From the NCBI RefSeq assembly GCF_006443095.1, contig NZ_VFWZ01000001.1, forward strand, positions 372,001-436,000: a stretch of 64,000 bases of DNA. The letters run 5' to 3'. The DNA is from Aquimarina algicola. Lineage in GTDB: Bacteria; Bacteroidota; Bacteroidia; Flavobacteriales; Flavobacteriaceae. The notes beneath the pieces are model-generated. The model worked only from the letters and a program-made list of their open reading frames with translations. It was not told where the DNA came from and did no database searches. Made by a program: the position numbers and the translations under genes. Shown here piece by piece: positions 22,362-29,379 of this stretch; the first letter of the stretch is position 1, and every line of letters starts with the position of its first letter.

Positions 22362-23897
22362 CTATTGATTTTTATCAACATTCTTTGAATTTTTAAACAA
22401 TTCTAGGAAAGCATTTCCGATATGATCTATGATATCACTTGCAATTAAAGCTTCGAATCCATTTTTTTGTGCGACAAGATCTCCTGCACTTCCATGTAAA
22501 TATACTCCAAATATAGCGGCATGTAAAGGAGTATACCCTTGAGATAATAGCCCTGTAATTATCCCTGAGAGGACATCGCCACTACCTGCAGTTGCCATAC
22601 CGGGATTTCCATTATTATTTACAAATAATTGATCATTATAAATAACCATAGAATTAGCTCCTTTTATAATAACGATACAATTATTTTCTTTTGAGAAGGA
22701 TTTTACTTTTTCAATTTTTTCAAAATCATCATCCCATTCCCTTATTAAACGTTCTAATTCTTTTGGATGTGGTGTCAAAATCGTTTCAGGAGCAAGTTTC
22801 TTTAATAACTTAGGGTTTTTGGCTAAAATGTTCAATCCATCCGCATCGATTACTAATGGATGCGTATTAGTATTCAAAAAAGATTCAAAAGCTTTTATTG
22901 TTTTTTCATGCGTACCAATTCCCATACCAATTCCTATAGCGGTAGGCTCATAATCAAACGTAATTTCTTCTATTAAATCTTCATTATCATCTGTAATAAC
23001 CATAGCTTCCGGCAATGCAGTTTGTAATATACTATAACCACACTCAGGCACGTATGTACTTGCTAATCCTGCACCAGTTCTTAATGCGGCTTTGGTCGCT
23101 AGAACAACACTTCCGATTTTACCATAACTCCCTCCTATCAATAAGCAATGCCCATAGGTTCCTTTATGGCTAAATTTAGCTCTGTTTTTATATAAAGATA
23201 CTGCTTCATATGGACCAATTAACTCTCCTACTCCAGATTCGTTGACTATAAAGTTACGATCAAGTCCTATATCAATTACCTGTACATCTCTAGTATAATT
23301 TCCTGTTTGAGGAAGAAAAAATATCAATTTAGGTAATTGAAAAGTAACTGTTATATCTGCAAATATTACGGCTTCTGCGTCTTCTGGAACCTTATTAGTA
23401 TACAATCCAGAAGGAATATCAATAGAAAGCGTAAAACACCTTAATGTATTGAGGCGTTTAATTGATTGAGCAACCCAAGGTACTAGAGGTCTATTAAGGC
23501 CAATCCCAAAAATTGCATCTATAACGATACTTTGTGGTTCTATCTCAGGAAAATCTTCTTCGCTTTTTAATTGTATTGGCCATTCGTTTGTTGTCTCCTT
23601 TAAACGATCATAATTTGCTAAAAAATTTTTTGATCGATTTTCGCTAAAATTCACAATGTATGTCTTTACATGATATCCATGTGTGATTAATAACCTTGAT
23701 ACGACTAGACCATCGCCTCCATTATTGCCAATACCACAAAATATGTGTATCGGTACCGCTGCTCCATTAAGTTTATTATGGATGATATTAAAAACCTGAG
23801 TAGCGGCACGTTCCATTAGTTCTAGAGAGGTCAATTGTTGATTTTGCATAGTCGCATGATCAGCTTTTTGCATTTGTTTTGCCGAGAATATTTTCAT
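22362..23897 (-). CDS. nnr: Bifunctional NAD(P)H-hydrate epimerase / ADP-dependent NAD(P)H-hydrate dehydratase
   Basis: The product is 511 aa, the full length of the fused enzyme. The N-terminal YjeF domain (1-215) has IFCGIGNNGGDGLVVSRLL and the acid in VIDAIFGIGLNRPL. The C-terminal ribokinase-like dehydratase domain (230-500) has GTYGHCLLIGGSYGKIGSVVLA, the strand TILTPHPKELERL and the nucleotide-binding GNPGMATAGSGDVLSGIITGLL. It repairs damaged NADH and NADPH hydrates in the cytoplasm. A TATATTTG element (minus strand, 23933-23940) lies 35 bp upstream. Long-hairpin repeat A follows its stop codon directly. Confidence 0.96.
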   Translation of the reverse strand: MKIFSAKQMQKADHATMQNQQLTSLELMERAATQVFNIIHNKLNGAAVPIHIFCGIGNNGGDGLVVSRLLITHGYHVKTYIVNFSENRSKNFLANYDRLKETTNEWPIQLKSEEDFPEIEPQSIVIDAIFGIGLNRPLVPWVAQSIKRLNTLRCFTLSIDIPSGLYTNKVPEDAEAVIFADITVTFQLPKLIFFLPQTGNYTRDVQVIDIGLDRNFIVNESGVGELIGPYEAVSLYKNRAKFSHKGTYGHCLLIGGSYGKIGSVVLATKAALRTGAGLASTYVPECGYSILQTALPEAMVITDDNEDLIEEITFDYEPTAIGIGMGIGTHEKTIKAFESFLNTNTHPLVIDADGLNILAKNPKLLKKLAPETILTPHPKELERLIREWDDDFEKIEKVKSFSKENNCIVIIKGANSMVIYNDQLFVNNNGNPGMATAGSGDVLSGIITGLLSQGYTPLHAAIFGVYLHGSAGDLVAQKNGFEALIASDIIDHIGNAFLELFKNSKNVDKNQ

Positions 23898-23932
23898 AAA
23901 TAAACTTTAATGATTAGTTATTTTTTCGGGAT

Positions 23933-23940
23933 CAAATATA
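23933..23940 (-). promoter_or_regulatory. Candidate -7 element for nnr
   Basis: The minus strand reads TATATTTG, an exact TAnnTTTG match, 35 bp ahead of the nnr start codon. There is no TTG at the expected -33 distance. Confidence 0.4.
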
Positions 23941-24069
23941 TTCAATTTTGAATTTGCTATTTTATGCTATCTTATTGTAAATTATTCAACAAAATAAGCT
24001 AATAATTAGAGAATACATAAAAGTTTATGAATACCCTTAAATTAAGTTTTCTCTTAGATCAAAAACATA

Positions 24070-24077
24070 TACATTTG
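24070..24077 (+). promoter_or_regulatory. Candidate -7 element for the threonine operon leader
   Basis: TACATTTG matches TAnnTTTG exactly. About 19 bp upstream there is TTT rather than TTG. A start about 7 nt downstream would give a leader RNA of about 230 nt before thrA, beginning about 20 nt ahead of the leader ORF. Confidence 0.55.
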
Positions 24078-24103
24078 ATTCAGCAAAAATTAAATAAGAT
24101 CTA

Positions 24104-24208
24104 ATGTTTAGCATGGTCACAATATTAGTTTTAATTTTAGGTTCGATTATGATTATCGACGCTACTTCTATTACACGTATTTTTTCTACGATTACCCTTA
24201 GGGGTTAA
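24104..24208 (+). CDS. Ile/Thr-rich leader peptide upstream of thrA
   Basis: This ORF of 34 codons begins with ATG at 24104 (a second ATG is at 24113) and stops at 24206-24208. It encodes 8 Ile and 5 Thr, concentrated in the second half (DATSITRIFSTITLRG). Threonine and isoleucine are the two end products that control the thr operon through leader-peptide attenuation in enterobacteria (ThrL), so the composition and position immediately ahead of thrABC strongly suggest the same logic here. The antiterminator and terminator folds are not obvious by eye. The -7 promoter box lies 26 bp upstream. It is too short for most gene callers. Confidence 0.65.
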   Translation: MFSMVTILVLILGSIMIIDATSITRIFSTITLRG

Positions 24209-24313
24209 TTACATTTATATCACCACCGCTATTATCTTTTTGTTGTTTTAAGAAAACAAATAAAAGACCACCAATAAACAATCAATTTATTTCAACTTTA
24301 AAACATACTTTTT

Positions 24314-26758
24314 ATGAACGTTCTAAAATTTGGAGGTTCGTCTGTTGCTAATGCTGCAACAATAGAAAACGTAATAGAAATCATTCAAAAACAATCAAAC
24401 TCCTCTCCTATTTATGTAGTTGTCTCAGCAATGGGAGGCGTTACAGATTTATTATTAAAGGCCGGAAAACAAGCATCTCATAATGATGAAGAGTATAAAA
24501 ATACTTTGGCAGAAATAGAACAAAGACATTTTGAAGCAATTAAAACTCTTATTCCTGTTTTATCACAAAGTGCTATCATAAGTAAAGTAAAATCAGAGCT
24601 TAATGCTTTAGAATCTATCTGCGAAGGTATTTACTTACTAAGTGAGCTATCACCAAAAACAATAGCAGTGATTTCTAGTTTTGGTGAGATGTTATCTTCA
24701 TACATTATTTCTGAAGCTGCAAAAGCAAAAGGATTAGATATTACATTAAAAGATTCAAGAGATCTTATTGTAAAAGCAGAAAATGGAAAAGTAGCAATCC
24801 ATTATAATGAAACAAATAAAAGAATACAAGAGTTTCAAAAAAACAATACACATAGAGTTACTTTATTTCCTGGTTTTGTTGCCAGAACACAAGAGGGTGA
24901 GCCTACAACATTAGGCCGAGGAGGATCAGATTTTACTGCAGCTATTCTTGCAGCAGCCTTAGAAGCAAATGAGCTACACATTTGGACTGATGTAAGTGGT
25001 ATGTATACAGCAAACCCAAAACTAGTAAAACAAGCTAAGCCTGTATCACATATTTCTTATCATGAGGCTATGGAATTATCACATTTTGGTGCTAAAGTCA
25101 TTTATCCTCCAACCATACATCCTGTGCTCGAGAACAATATTCCGATTCTGATCAAAAATACCTTTAATCCTTCAGACAAGGGTACACTTATAACCAGAAC
25201 TGTCGATGATAGAAAAAAACCGGTTACAGGAATAAGTCATATCGAAAACATCGCTATTATCTCATTAGAAGGTAGTGGTATGGTAGGTATTCCAGGGTTT
25301 TCAAAGCGTTTATTTGAAACTTTATTTTTAGAGAATATTAATATTATACTAATCACTCAAGCTTCCTCAGAACATTCAATATGTTTGGCTGTAGAAGCAG
25401 AAGATGCCGAAAAAGCTAAACATGTTCTTGATATTGCTTTTGAGTTTGAAATTTCGAAAGGAAAACTAGACCCCGTAAAAATTGAGCATCATGCAGCTAT
25501 TGTTGCTTTGGTTGGTGATAACATGTATCATCATCAAGGATTAAGTGGTAAAATGTTTAGTACCCTTGGTAAAAACAATGTAAATATAAGAGCAATAGCA
25601 CAAGGAGCTTCAGAAAAAAATATATCTGTAGTCATAGAGAAAAAAGATATTAAAAAAGCACTCAATGTTTTACATGAACGCTTTTTTGAAGTAAAAACAA
25701 AACAGCTCAATCTTTTTATTACCGGTGTAGGAAATGTAGGGAGTAAACTTTTGGAGCAATTAGAACAACAAAAAGAATATTTAAAAAATAAATTACAACT
25801 AAAAATTAGAGTAGTTGGACTCTCTAACTCCAGAAAAATGATTTTTGACGAAAGTGGAGTGAACTTAAAAAAATGGCAAGAAGTACTCACATCGGGAGAA
25901 ACAGCAGATGCAACCGCTTTTTTCAATAGAGCAAAAGAAATGAACTTACGGAACTCCATTTTTGTAGACAATACTGCTAATCCTGATATCGCAAATGTGT
26001 ATAAGCATTACCTCAAAGAAAGTATGGCAGTTGTAACTTGTAATAAAATCGCTTGCGCAGATGCTTATATTCATTATGAAGAATTACAAAACTTATCAAG
26101 AAAATTTAGTGCTTCTTTTTTATATGAAACTAATGTTGGTGCAGGTTTACCGATAATTGATACATTAAATAACCTTATCGCTTCCGGAGATAATATTCAT
26201 AAAATTCAGGCTGTATTATCAGGAAGTTTAAATTTTGTTTTTAATAATTACAAAGAAGATATTTTATTTCATGATGTTGTACAACAAGCTAAAGAAGAAG
26301 GATATACAGAACCAGATCCCAAGATAGATTTAAGTGGTGTGGATGTAGCTCGAAAAATATTAATCTTAGCCAGAGAAAGTGGTAAAGTTATGGAACTTGA
26401 AGATATCGAAAATGATGCATTTTTACCAAAAGAAACCTTGAACACAAAATCAGTAGAAGAATTTTTTGTATCTCTACAGAAAAATGAAGAGCATTTTAAA
26501 GCTATTTTGCAAGAAGCTTCTCAAAAAGATTGTAGGTTGAAATATGTAGCTCAGTACGAAGACGGAAAAGCAAAAGTAGGATTACAACACATACCTGCTG
26601 ATCATCCATTTTATAACTTAGAAGGAAGTGATAACATTGTATTATTTTATACGGATAGATATCCACAACAACCTCTTATTGTAAAAGGAGCCGGTGCCGG
26701 AGCAGCCGTAACAGCTTCAGGTATTTTTGCAGATATTATTAGGATCGGGAAAAAATAG
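24314..26758 (+). CDS. thrA: Bifunctional aspartate kinase / homoserine dehydrogenase I
   Basis: The product is 814 aa, the length of ThrA. The N-terminal kinase domain has VLKFGGSSVANAATIENV and the substrate loop TTLGRGGSDFTAAILAAAL. Two ACT regulatory domains occupy about 310-460. The homoserine dehydrogenase half begins with LFITGVGNVGSKLLEQL and contains VVTCNKIACA and the catalytic region YTEPDPKIDLSGVDVARKILILARE. It catalyses the first and third steps from aspartate to threonine and is usually inhibited by threonine through the ACT domains. It is followed by thrB after 10 bp. Confidence 0.97.
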   Translation: MNVLKFGGSSVANAATIENVIEIIQKQSNSSPIYVVVSAMGGVTDLLLKAGKQASHNDEEYKNTLAEIEQRHFEAIKTLIPVLSQSAIISKVKSELNALESICEGIYLLSELSPKTIAVISSFGEMLSSYIISEAAKAKGLDITLKDSRDLIVKAENGKVAIHYNETNKRIQEFQKNNTHRVTLFPGFVARTQEGEPTTLGRGGSDFTAAILAAALEANELHIWTDVSGMYTANPKLVKQAKPVSHISYHEAMELSHFGAKVIYPPTIHPVLENNIPILIKNTFNPSDKGTLITRTVDDRKKPVTGISHIENIAIISLEGSGMVGIPGFSKRLFETLFLENINIILITQASSEHSICLAVEAEDAEKAKHVLDIAFEFEISKGKLDPVKIEHHAAIVALVGDNMYHHQGLSGKMFSTLGKNNVNIRAIAQGASEKNISVVIEKKDIKKALNVLHERFFEVKTKQLNLFITGVGNVGSKLLEQLEQQKEYLKNKLQLKIRVVGLSNSRKMIFDESGVNLKKWQEVLTSGETADATAFFNRAKEMNLRNSIFVDNTANPDIANVYKHYLKESMAVVTCNKIACADAYIHYEELQNLSRKFSASFLYETNVGAGLPIIDTLNNLIASGDNIHKIQAVLSGSLNFVFNNYKEDILFHDVVQQAKEEGYTEPDPKIDLSGVDVARKILILARESGKVMELEDIENDAFLPKETLNTKSVEEFFVSLQKNEEHFKAILQEASQKDCRLKYVAQYEDGKAKVGLQHIPADHPFYNLEGSDNIVLFYTDRYPQQPLIVKGAGAGAAVTASGIFADIIRIGKK

Positions 26759-26768
26759 AGAACATATC

Positions 26769-27698
26769 ATGAGTAAAAGTCTAAAAATATTTGCTCCGGC
26801 AACAGTAGCTAATTTATCGTGTGGTTTTGATGTCTTAGGGTGTTGTTTGGATACTGTAGGTGATGAAATGGTGATTTCACTTTCATCTACGCCTGGTGTA
26901 AAAATCACTAAAATTGTTGGAGCAACACTTCCTTTCGAAACACATAAAAATGTTGCAGGTGTTGCTACAGAAGCACTTCTAAAAGAATATGGAAAAAACA
27001 TTGGAATCGAGATAGAGATTTACAAAAAGATAAAAGCCGGTAGTGGTATTGGTAGCAGTGCTGCAAGTAGTGCCGGAGCTGTTTGGGCTGTAAATCATTT
27101 ACTCGATTCTCCTTTTACTCCAAATCAATTGATCCCATTTGCAATGGAAGGTGAAAAACTGGCAAGTGGTAATGCCCATGCAGATAATGTGGCTCCTGCC
27201 CTACTTGGTGGTTTTACATTGGTTAGAAGTTACTCGCCTTTGGATGTAATCAAATTACACACTCCAAAAGATCTTTTTATGACAGTTATCCACCCACAAA
27301 TAGAAGTAAAAACCTCTGATTCTAGATCAGTGATTAAAAATAAAGTATCATTACAAAAAGCAATTCATCAGTGGGGTAATGTAGGAGGATTAGTCGCCGG
27401 TCTATATACAGAAGATTATCAACTTATCGGTCGCAGTCTTGAAGATGTAATTATAGAACCATTACGTTCTATTTTAATTCCAGAATTTGATACTGTAAAA
27501 ACAACAGCGCTCAAAAATGGGGCTTTAGGTTGCGGAATATCAGGTTCAGGCCCTTCTATTTTTGCATTAAGCCGAGGAAATCAAAATGCTATTGTAATTG
27601 CAGAACACATCAAAAAAATATATGATACAACGGGAATTGATTTTGATATTCATGTTTCAAAAATTAATAATAACGGAGTTAAAATTTTAAATAACTAA
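26769..27698 (+). CDS. thrB: Homoserine kinase
   Basis: Started at the ATG at 26769 (10 bp after thrA) the product is 309 aa, as expected for a GHMP homoserine kinase. An ATG at 26727 would lie inside thrA. Motifs are APATVANLSCGFDVLG at the N-terminus, the GHMP ATP loop GSGIGSSAASSAGAVWAV and the C-terminal GALGCGISGSGPSIFAL. It phosphorylates homoserine for ThrC. It is followed by a Rid-family gene after 3 bp. Confidence 0.96.
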   Translation: MSKSLKIFAPATVANLSCGFDVLGCCLDTVGDEMVISLSSTPGVKITKIVGATLPFETHKNVAGVATEALLKEYGKNIGIEIEIYKKIKAGSGIGSSAASSAGAVWAVNHLLDSPFTPNQLIPFAMEGEKLASGNAHADNVAPALLGGFTLVRSYSPLDVIKLHTPKDLFMTVIHPQIEVKTSDSRSVIKNKVSLQKAIHQWGNVGGLVAGLYTEDYQLIGRSLEDVIIEPLRSILIPEFDTVKTTALKNGALGCGISGSGPSIFALSRGNQNAIVIAEHIKKIYDTTGIDFDIHVSKINNNGVKILNN

Positions 27699-27701
27699 AG
27701 C

Positions 27702-28064
27702 ATGCAGCAACGTAAAAAAGTAAGCAGCGGAGCACCTTGGGAAGATATTGTTGGATATTCTAGGGCAATACAAGTAGGAAATACAATAGAAATTGCAGGC
27801 ACTACAGCAAAAGGTAATGATGAATATGAGCAAACTCATGCTATCATTAAAATTGCTGAAAAATCACTTCACGAACTTGGCGCAGATTTAAGCCACGTGA
27901 TTCGTACACGAATATATTGCACAAACATTGCTAATTGGGAGAAAATTGGCAAAGCACACGGAGAATTCTTTAGAACTGTAAAGCCTGTATCGACAATGGT
28001 AGAAGTTTCTAAATTAATAAATCCGGATATTTTGGTAGAAATAGAGTTTTCTGCTGTCTTATAA
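27702..28064 (+). CDS. Rid family (YjgF/YER057c) protein lacking the canonical Arg
   Basis: The product is 120 aa. The Rid fold is clear: GYSRAIQVGNTIEIAGTTA, KSLHELGADLSHVIRTRIY, and the C-terminal VEVSKLINPDILVEIEFSAV. RidA proper deaminates 2-aminoacrylate and uses an Arg in PARSCVEVARL. Here the corresponding segment is PVSTMVEVSKL, with Ser in place of the Arg, so it belongs to a Rid subgroup that probably lacks imine deaminase activity or uses another residue (inference). Its place between thrB and thrC suggests a role linked to threonine or isoleucine metabolism. Gaps are 3 bp upstream and 25 bp downstream. Confidence 0.9.
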   Translation: MQQRKKVSSGAPWEDIVGYSRAIQVGNTIEIAGTTAKGNDEYEQTHAIIKIAEKSLHELGADLSHVIRTRIYCTNIANWEKIGKAHGEFFRTVKPVSTMVEVSKLINPDILVEIEFSAVL

Positions 28065-28089: not shown

Positions 28090-29379
28090 ATGAACTATTA
28101 TAGTTTACATAACCATACCTTAAAAGTATGTTTTTCTGAAGCAGTCATACAAGGATTAGCTCCTGATAGAGGGCTATACTTTCCTGAAGATATTAAACCT
28201 TTACCAACATCTTTTTTTGAAAATATAGACAAATTAGATAATACCGAAATAGCGTTTCAGACCATAAAACAATTTGTTGGAGATGAAATCCCTGAACAGG
28301 AATTAAAAAATATCTTGTCTGATGTGTTAAGTTTTGATTTTCCTATTGTACCAATTTCGGATAATATAGCAAGTTTAGAACTTTTTCATGGGCCAACTAT
28401 GGCTTTCAAAGATGTGGGCGCACGTTTTATGGCTAGATGTCTAGGGTATTTTAATAAGGATAATGATAACAATGTAACAGTTTTGGTTGCAACTTCTGGA
28501 GATACAGGAGGCGCAGTTGCAAAAGGTTTTTTAGGAGTAAAAGGAGTTGACGTGGTTATTTTGTATCCATCCGGAAAAGTGAGTGACATTCAAGAAAGAC
28601 AATTAACTACACTTGGTCAAAATATCACCGCTTTGCAGGTAGATGGCGTTTTTGATGATTGCCAAGATATGGTGAAAACAGCATTTTTGGATACAGAAAT
28701 AACCAATCATAGACAACTTACTTCTGCCAATTCTATAAACATTGCAAGATGGTTGCCTCAATTATTTTACTTCGTATTTGCTTACAAACAATTGAAAAAC
28801 AATCATAAAGATCTTGTTTTTTCTGTGCCTAGTGGAAATTTTGGAAATATTTGTGCTGGTATTGTTGCTCACAAGTTAGGTCTGCCTGTTAAGCATTTTA
28901 TAGCTTCGACAAATAGTAATGATACAGTAGTGAGGTATCTCGAAACATCAAATTATGATCCTAAACCTTCTAAAGCTACAATCTCGAATGCAATGGATGT
29001 AGGTAACCCTAGTAATTTTGTTAGAATTCAAAAATTATTTAATGATAGTTTTCAAGAACTAAAGAATGATTTTTCTGCATATAGCTTTGATGACGATCAG
29101 ACTAGAGAAGGAATGAAAGAAATATACAACAAAACCCAATATATCGCTGATCCACATGGTGCAATTGGGTATTTAGGTCTTAAAAAACATCAGCTTTCTG
29201 ATGATGAATATGGCGTTTTTCTTGAAACAGCGCATCCTGTAAAGTTTTTAGACACAGTAAAAGATACTTTGGATACTACTATTGAAATCCCTCCTCAAAT
29301 TGAGAAAGTGATGAACAAGGAAAAGAAAAGTATTGCAATAAAAGGATATAAAGAATTAAAGGAGTTTTTATTACAATAA
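28090..29379 (+). CDS. thrC: Threonine synthase
   Basis: The product is 429 aa, matching the shorter bacterial ThrC class. The N-terminal signature is LHNHTLKVCFSEAVIQGLAPDRGLYFP. The PLP lysine is in FHGPTMAFKDVGARFM. The phosphate loop is VATSGDTGGAVAKGF. Further conserved are SANSINIARWLPQLFYFV and FSVPSGNFGNICAG. It converts O-phosphohomoserine to threonine. It is the last gene of the operon and its stop codon lies inside a strong terminator hairpin. Confidence 0.97.
   Translation: MNYYSLHNHTLKVCFSEAVIQGLAPDRGLYFPEDIKPLPTSFFENIDKLDNTEIAFQTIKQFVGDEIPEQELKNILSDVLSFDFPIVPISDNIASLELFHGPTMAFKDVGARFMARCLGYFNKDNDNNVTVLVATSGDTGGAVAKGFLGVKGVDVVILYPSGKVSDIQERQLTTLGQNITALQVDGVFDDCQDMVKTAFLDTEITNHRQLTSANSINIARWLPQLFYFVFAYKQLKNNHKDLVFSVPSGNFGNICAGIVAHKLGLPVKHFIASTNSNDTVVRYLETSNYDPKPSKATISNAMDVGNPSNFVRIQKLFNDSFQELKNDFSAYSFDDDQTREGMKEIYNKTQYIADPHGAIGYLGLKKHQLSDDEYGVFLETAHPVKFLDTVKDTLDTTIEIPPQIEKVMNKEKKSIAIKGYKELKEFLLQ

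Follow-up and report, generated by a model that had tools for sequence, protein, structure and literature searches.

The threonine operon thrA-thrB-rid-thrC of Aquimarina algicola is preceded by a candidate leader-peptide attenuator that would sense how much charged Thr-tRNA and Ile-tRNA is available and whose off-switch would be gated by Rho and not by an intrinsic terminator, a combined reading that we place just short of an even balance. Its sensing half, in which ribosomes stall on Thr and Ile codons, is very likely, because of the codon content, position and conservation of the leader. Judged from sequence comparisons, the leader element is real and widely conserved, and its form is new while the principle it follows is not. 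The features of the element and operon in the 64,000-nucleotide stretch at 372001-436000 of contig NZ_VFWZ01000001.1 that was analysed (the window) are collected in Table 1.

Table 1 Features of the thr leader and operon, numbered from the first base of the window.
Feature	Coordinates	Strand	Basis
-7 promoter box TACATTTG	24070-24077	+	fits flavobacterial consensus TAnnTTTG
Leader peptide ORF, 34 codons, 8 Ile and 5 Thr, ending ITLRG-stop	24104-24208	+	
HP1 hairpin GAUUACCC-UUAG-GGG(U)UUAAUU	24190-24210	+	fold
YATAT(C) motif, then C-rich stretch (TATATCACCACCGC)	24216-24229	+	conserved in relatives
Untranslated trailer, rich in C and poor in G, proposed to belong to a Rho loading region	24220-24313	+	composition
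HP2, A/T-rich hairpin without U run	24235-24267	+	70-nt stretch holding HP2 folds with z -3.1
thrA, bifunctional aspartate kinase / homoserine dehydrogenase I	24314-26758	+	NF006959, 1068.7 bits (cut-off 726)
thrB, homoserine kinase	26772-27698	+	NF002288, 399.7 bits (cut-off 194)
Rid-family protein gene, between thrB and thrC	27702-28064	+	PF01042, 76.7 bits (cut-off 27.3)
thrC, threonine synthase	28090-29379	+	TIGR00260, 281.5 bits (cut-off 167.1)

Profile matches to all four genes agree with the gene order given in the initial annotation of this DNA. The Rid-family gene fell below the TIGR00004 cut-off (46.9 versus 106.25 bits) and is therefore not a typical RidA. The consensus promoter element that had been proposed also holds up: TACATTTG matches the flavobacterial -7 box TAnnTTTG, which according to the available text of PMC9723704 lies at -12 to -5, giving a predicted transcription start near 24082, and a box of this type is found 10-45 nt ahead of the leader start in 85 of 92 leader loci. 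In three relatives (L067, L100 and L107), a TAnnTTTG box stands directly ahead of thrA and the leader is absent, as if it had been wholly lost.

The leader ORF at 24104-24208 translates to MFSMVTILVLILGSIMIIDATSITRIFSTITLRG, exactly the 34-codon frame with eight Ile and five Thr that had been described. Thr and Ile make up 13 of its 34 residues, compared with 15.0% in 39 long ORFs of the window (binomial probability 8e-4, which is modest taken alone as many short ORFs exist). The same ORF is present in all 18 other Aquimarina thrA loci compared, which share 79-83% identity with the window; L020, a distant thrA locus from a MAG in which such a leader was not seen, was left out before counting. 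The peptides in these loci are 34-37 residues long and begin 199-209 nt ahead of thrA (210 nt in the window). Their C-termini are equally constant, with ITLRG in 17 of the 19 leaders including that of the window, ITPRG in L013 and TTLRG in L015, and the ORFs end in the nucleotides ACCC(T/C)TAGGGGTTAA. Among codons with a single difference, 41% of changes are synonymous, where equal base changes would give 27%, and differences between pairs are most frequent at the third codon position (1288, 1476 and 1896 for positions one to three, in pairs that are not independent). From these coding signatures in Aquimarina, we infer that the ORF is translated.

Enrichment in the control residues extends beyond the genus, with Thr and Ile together forming 41% of residues in the 19 Aquimarina leaders and 32% in 95 others over a background of 15%, in leader sets that were chosen by rules seeking the hairpin described below and, partly, Thr/Ile. 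Thr on its own accounts for 21% of leader residues across 92 loci and 30% of the last 18, an enrichment that exceeds that of Ile.

The part of the element that is kept across genera is HP1, a hairpin at the end of the leader ORF that the initial annotation had missed. In the window, the leader stop codon TAA (24206-24208) lies within its 3' arm, and the CCC of its 5' arm begins inside the last Thr codon. This arrangement recurs widely: in 112 of 114 leaders, the second base of the last Thr codon is the first C of CCC, and 84 of the 95 non-Aquimarina loci have their stop codon 5, 11 or 14 nt beyond that C. The control codons thus run into a hairpin near the leader stop, as a classic thr attenuator requires. 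The outer pairs of HP1 covary, with a mean of 2.07 consecutive further pairs versus 1.69 +/- 0.09 (n = 95) when the 3' flanks were exchanged 2000 times (maximum 2.0), a comparison in which relatedness remains in the data. For example, the second outer pair alternates between A-U (28 loci) and U-A (23). A count on 53 loci aligned with MAFFT showed no covariation in the core, because the CCC:GGG pairs are nearly invariant and differences in loop length put the columns out of register. In L121, L122 and L126, the arms appear by eye to be swapped (GGG, then CCC), with the stop codon in the loop.

These properties bear on the idea that the ORF is translated without a sensing role, or that its many Thr and Ile codons simply follow from a leader that is AT-rich, G-poor and unstructured. 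Ile codons are AT-rich and the region is G-poor, as this idea would predict, but the stronger enrichment of Thr, the coding signatures in Aquimarina and the Thr/Ile codons that by eye adjoin HP1 in distant families too all speak against it, and we regard it as very improbable.

A survey of the family, in which 149 genomes were searched and 123 gave a strong thrA match, yielded 121 upstream regions that were all inspected, the own genome and a partial match (G108) being left out. By script and eye, 99 of the 121 carry a leader ORF whose end lies in a CCC/GGG hairpin. In three (L099, L111 and L221), a Thr/Ile leader is combined with an intrinsic terminator, two (L112 and L220) have a terminator-like hairpin but no such leader, and 17 have neither leader nor terminator; given these last two groups, the leader device is dispensable. 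A uniform rule, which asks for a CCC or CCA followed by GGG in a hairpin that overlaps a short ORF at its end, likewise matches 99 of the 121 loci, compared with a mean of 4.7 in shuffled copies (maximum 8 in 15 rounds) and 15 on the reverse strand; relative to script and eye, it adds L208, a chance match that was not counted, and misses L075. With the further requirement of at least four Thr or Ile in the last 16 residues, the rule retains 96 family loci, against 1.0 in shuffled copies (maximum 4) and five on the reverse strand. L106, L207 and L213 are weak members, with leader ends poor in Thr and Ile. The comparison with relatives that had been suggested as a check thus finds the short ORF, its Ile/Thr richness and its place ahead of thrA all kept, lending support to the earlier reading of Thr/Ile leader attenuation ahead of thrA.

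In samples of the class and order, both of which include the own family, a strong thrA match was obtained in 27 of 129 and 44 of 98 genomes, respectively. Sorted by eye, 39 loci of other families comprise 17 of the hairpin type, 8 of a terminator type and 14 without a leader. Several leaders outside the family (L122, L125, L126 and L132) also hold a number of Met codons, which would fit sensing of methionine supply as well, Met being a further product of this pathway. A model of the element that uses sequence only and was made from 40 loci, of which several come from the very genomes searched, matches thrA in 39 of 60 family genomes under stricter filters, and in the own genome thrA is its sole match. 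Away from thrA, the model gives five weak matches (E 5e-4 to 0.01), and the two that were inspected lie inside a coding sequence (L226) and between two genes (L225).

The initial annotation had doubted that a standard terminator is present, and this doubt was borne out. No terminator-like site was found in 23000-25500 of the window, and among the 114 thr leaders only four pass the terminator rule ahead of thrA, the hit being HP1 itself each time; one of 18 further hairpin-type loci also passes. In contrast, terminator-like sites are present in all 15 hisG leaders (11 of the genus, own genome included, and four of other families of the order), each of which on inspection combines a His-codon leader with a terminator. 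The his leader of the own genome, MKNLFIHHHHSYISAQAW (L168, upstream of hisG near 187469 of contig C1), contains four His codons together with a terminator and an antiterminator duplex of -18.9 kcal/mol, and is by these signals a textbook his attenuator. It resembles the thr element in being a control-codon leader before a biosynthetic operon and differs from it in having a terminator and antiterminator, so the signals of a terminator mechanism exist in the same genome, but not at thr.

The same contrast appears among the thr leaders of relatives. Eleven loci, comprising the three family members named above and eight of the 39 outside the family (L123, L125, L128, L130, L143, L144, L151 and L152), share with the window element a Thr/Ile leader before thrA but differ in carrying a terminator (10 of 11 by the rule) and in lacking the excess of C over G in the trailer (10 tested). 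Their hairpins are followed by a T run, except for a weaker tail in L125; in L221, the first match printed by the terminator rule is the leader-end hairpin, and the downstream hairpin with a T run was recognised by eye. In L143, L144 and L152, and with one change in L151, a segment past the Thr codons by eye duplicates the terminator's 3' arm and could for that reason pair with the 5' arm as an antiterminator.

Such relatives lend weight to classic attenuation at the window locus as well, with HP1 serving either as a 1:2 hairpin alongside an atypical 3:4 terminator or as a U-poor intrinsic terminator in its own right. HP1 occupies the place of the 1:2 hairpin in classic attenuators, and a T-rich stretch follows it in L025, L046, L064 and L215. 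Yet the rarity of loci passing the terminator rule and the empty window scan argue against this account, as does the weakness of HP1 (about -5 to -12 kcal/mol among the loci listed). Alternative pairing was also sought without success: duplex matching of leader against trailer revealed no antiterminator (mean rank 0.50, n = 87), and a block covariation scan of 87 loci gave no convincing alternative helix, its top scores joining invariant bases of HP1 to invariant thrA codons. A pairing of leader ACGGAC with trailer GUCCGU, noticed by eye in some loci, was rejected, as matched pairs were no better than mismatched ones across 87 loci. Five long-trailer loci were left out of these duplex and covariation tests and of the composition, C over G and start-masking tests described below. 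Overall, classic attenuation seems unlikely here.

Control of thrA translation, which the initial annotation had offered beside Rho, would have leader stalling open the start region of thrA. There are precedents for such a device: Flavobacterium johnsoniae sets initiation by mRNA structure and not by Shine-Dalgarno pairing, as stated in the available text of PMC6847099, and the E. coli leader toiL opens a start site, with Rho acting later, in that of PMC12121999. At the thr loci, the folding test gave no sign of start masking, with a mean unpaired probability of the thrA start of 0.523 in the free RNA and 0.525 with a modelled ribosome stalled on the last Thr codon (n = 109), and pairing between leader and thrA start was not found in the covariation scan (n = 87). 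We consider translational attenuation improbable, and Rho the better fit of the two mechanisms offered.

Downstream of HP1 lies a second conserved feature, the YATAT motif. YATAT occurs within 28 nt past the G run in 77 of 95 non-Aquimarina loci, compared with 36.9 +/- 4.3 in shuffles (maximum 50), and its position is narrowly set, most often 8 nt (36 loci) and mostly 8-12 nt (66 loci) from the G run, or mostly 18-26 nt past the first base of the last Thr codon. By eye, it is absent at that place in L132, L149, L122 and L126. The HP1-to-YATAT spacing would suit a hairpin-linked polymerase pause, but the motif has no G at the two positions, -10 and +1, where the known consensus pause carries one. 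That YATAT and its spacing are kept beyond the needs of HP1 alone would also be expected if stalled ribosomes altered mRNA stability, or if HP1 and YATAT bound a trans-acting protein; nothing specific points to either, however, and both leave unexplained why the codon run adjoins HP1 and why his and a minority of thr leaders have terminators, so that this explanation appears quite unlikely.

Further downstream, the region is structured beyond shuffles (mean z -0.81, standard error 0.12, n = 92). The A/T hairpin reported there earlier does exist as HP2, but one base away from the 24234-24266 given for it, and it is a weaker element than HP1: its sequence is not conserved, and its position and distance to thrA vary among relatives. 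As a terminator, HP2 was rejected for its lack of a U run and its variable position and sequence.

The trailer itself is rich in C and poor in G. In the window it contains 18 C and 5 G, a pseudocount ratio of 3.17 that exceeds those of all 47 control upstream regions (maximum 2.8). Over the last 60 nt, the median log2 of C over G is 0.87 in Aquimarina (19 loci) and 1.20 in the other family members (68), versus 0.16 in leaderless controls (24) and 0.10 in terminator types (10). The bias in the 68 family loci is significant relative to both the leaderless (p = 6e-7, or 9e-7 after dropping 4 of the 24 that enter an upstream gene) and the terminator controls (p = 1e-5), though it is a composition hint drawn from related sequences that are not independent. 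In loci of other families the bias is weak (median 0.87, p = 0.019, 17 loci) and rests largely on one group, the related Weeksellaceae-like L133-L139; with these counted as one, the median falls to 0.58 (p = 0.17, 11 loci), in a recount that omits L147, which had been placed with the outside-family set in the C over G and terminator counts and belongs to the same family as the window.

The proposal of Rho as the output, gated by ribosome occupancy, is reached by exclusion, as terminator, antiterminator and start masking were not found, and from the C-rich, G-poor trailer and the HP1-to-YATAT spacing; it is our best guess, at a little under even odds. When Thr and Ile are plentiful, the ribosome would reach the leader stop codon and depart, HP1 would then form behind the polymerase and favour a pause near YATAT, and Rho would load on the leader and trailer RNA, now free and poor in G, and terminate transcription before translation of thrA begins. 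Under a shortage of Thr or Ile, the ribosome would stall on the codon run and cover the 5' arm of HP1 and the leader RNA, blocking both HP1 folding and Rho loading, and the polymerase would continue into thrA. Rho might still load during starvation, since about 60-105 nt of trailer would be free downstream of the stalled ribosome.

The closest known counterpart is the enterobacterial thr operon attenuator, with the leader peptide thrL (Rfam Thr_leader). Both have a Thr/Ile-rich leader before thrA, thrB and thrC, with control codons that enter a hairpin near the stop codon, but thrL has a 2:3 antiterminator and a 3:4 U-run terminator, neither of which was found at the Aquimarina thr leader. The Aquimarina element also differs in its flavobacterial promoter, in the Rid gene inside the operon and in matching no Rfam family (none at the gathering threshold, the best chance match having E 0.58). 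The output proposed here has other counterparts, as tnaC and mgtL are Rho-dependent leader ORFs. A further E. coli short ORF, toiL, is coupled to Rho according to the available text of PMC12121999, where Rho differs in acting inside the gene once translation is shut off. In all three, as in our proposal, the position of the ribosome in a short ORF decides Rho termination, with the difference that at thr we infer sensing of starvation for the operon's own product and propose Rho.

Upstream of ilvD, the Aquimarina loci have no clear leader. In L153-L165, strings near AGTGATTGTAAA and GGATRTTGTAAG recur in many Aquimarina loci without a leader ORF and could be regulator sites. L157, upstream of ilvD in G276, holds a short ORF rich in Ile, Leu and Val (MRVNNVILSIIILLCQL) with a terminator-like hairpin behind it, and is likely an ilv attenuator.

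Leader peptides ahead of amino-acid operons were already suspected in flavobacteria. For Flavobacterium psychrophilum, the authors of PMC9723704 report strong signs of attenuation by leader peptides ahead of amino-acid operons, in a main text that names neither thrA nor threonine, although its supplementary tables may hold thrA. Similarly, leader-peptide-like short ORFs are mentioned for Bacteroides in the available text of PMC7366714, and the terms thrA, threonine and attenuat do not occur in that of PMC6847099. We found no description of a terminator-free thr leader in the openly accessible full-text literature.

Amino-acid operon control in Bacteroidota is little known, and the thr element is of interest because it differs from the his leader of its own genome and from the terminator-type thr leaders of relatives. 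Taken together, the comparisons could point to a second class of amino-acid attenuator across several Bacteroidia families, in which a stalling ribosome would gate a stop-codon hairpin, a YATAT pause site and Rho; a single genome would then hold a textbook his terminator and a terminator-free thr leader, and related lineages would have switched types on the same gene. We advance this tentatively, with somewhat less than even confidence. If it is true, thrA is controlled by two different off-switches among related lineages, so that the change from intrinsic to Rho-dependent attenuation could be tested directly, and threonine sensing in most of a large environmental family would be invisible to terminator-based genome scans.
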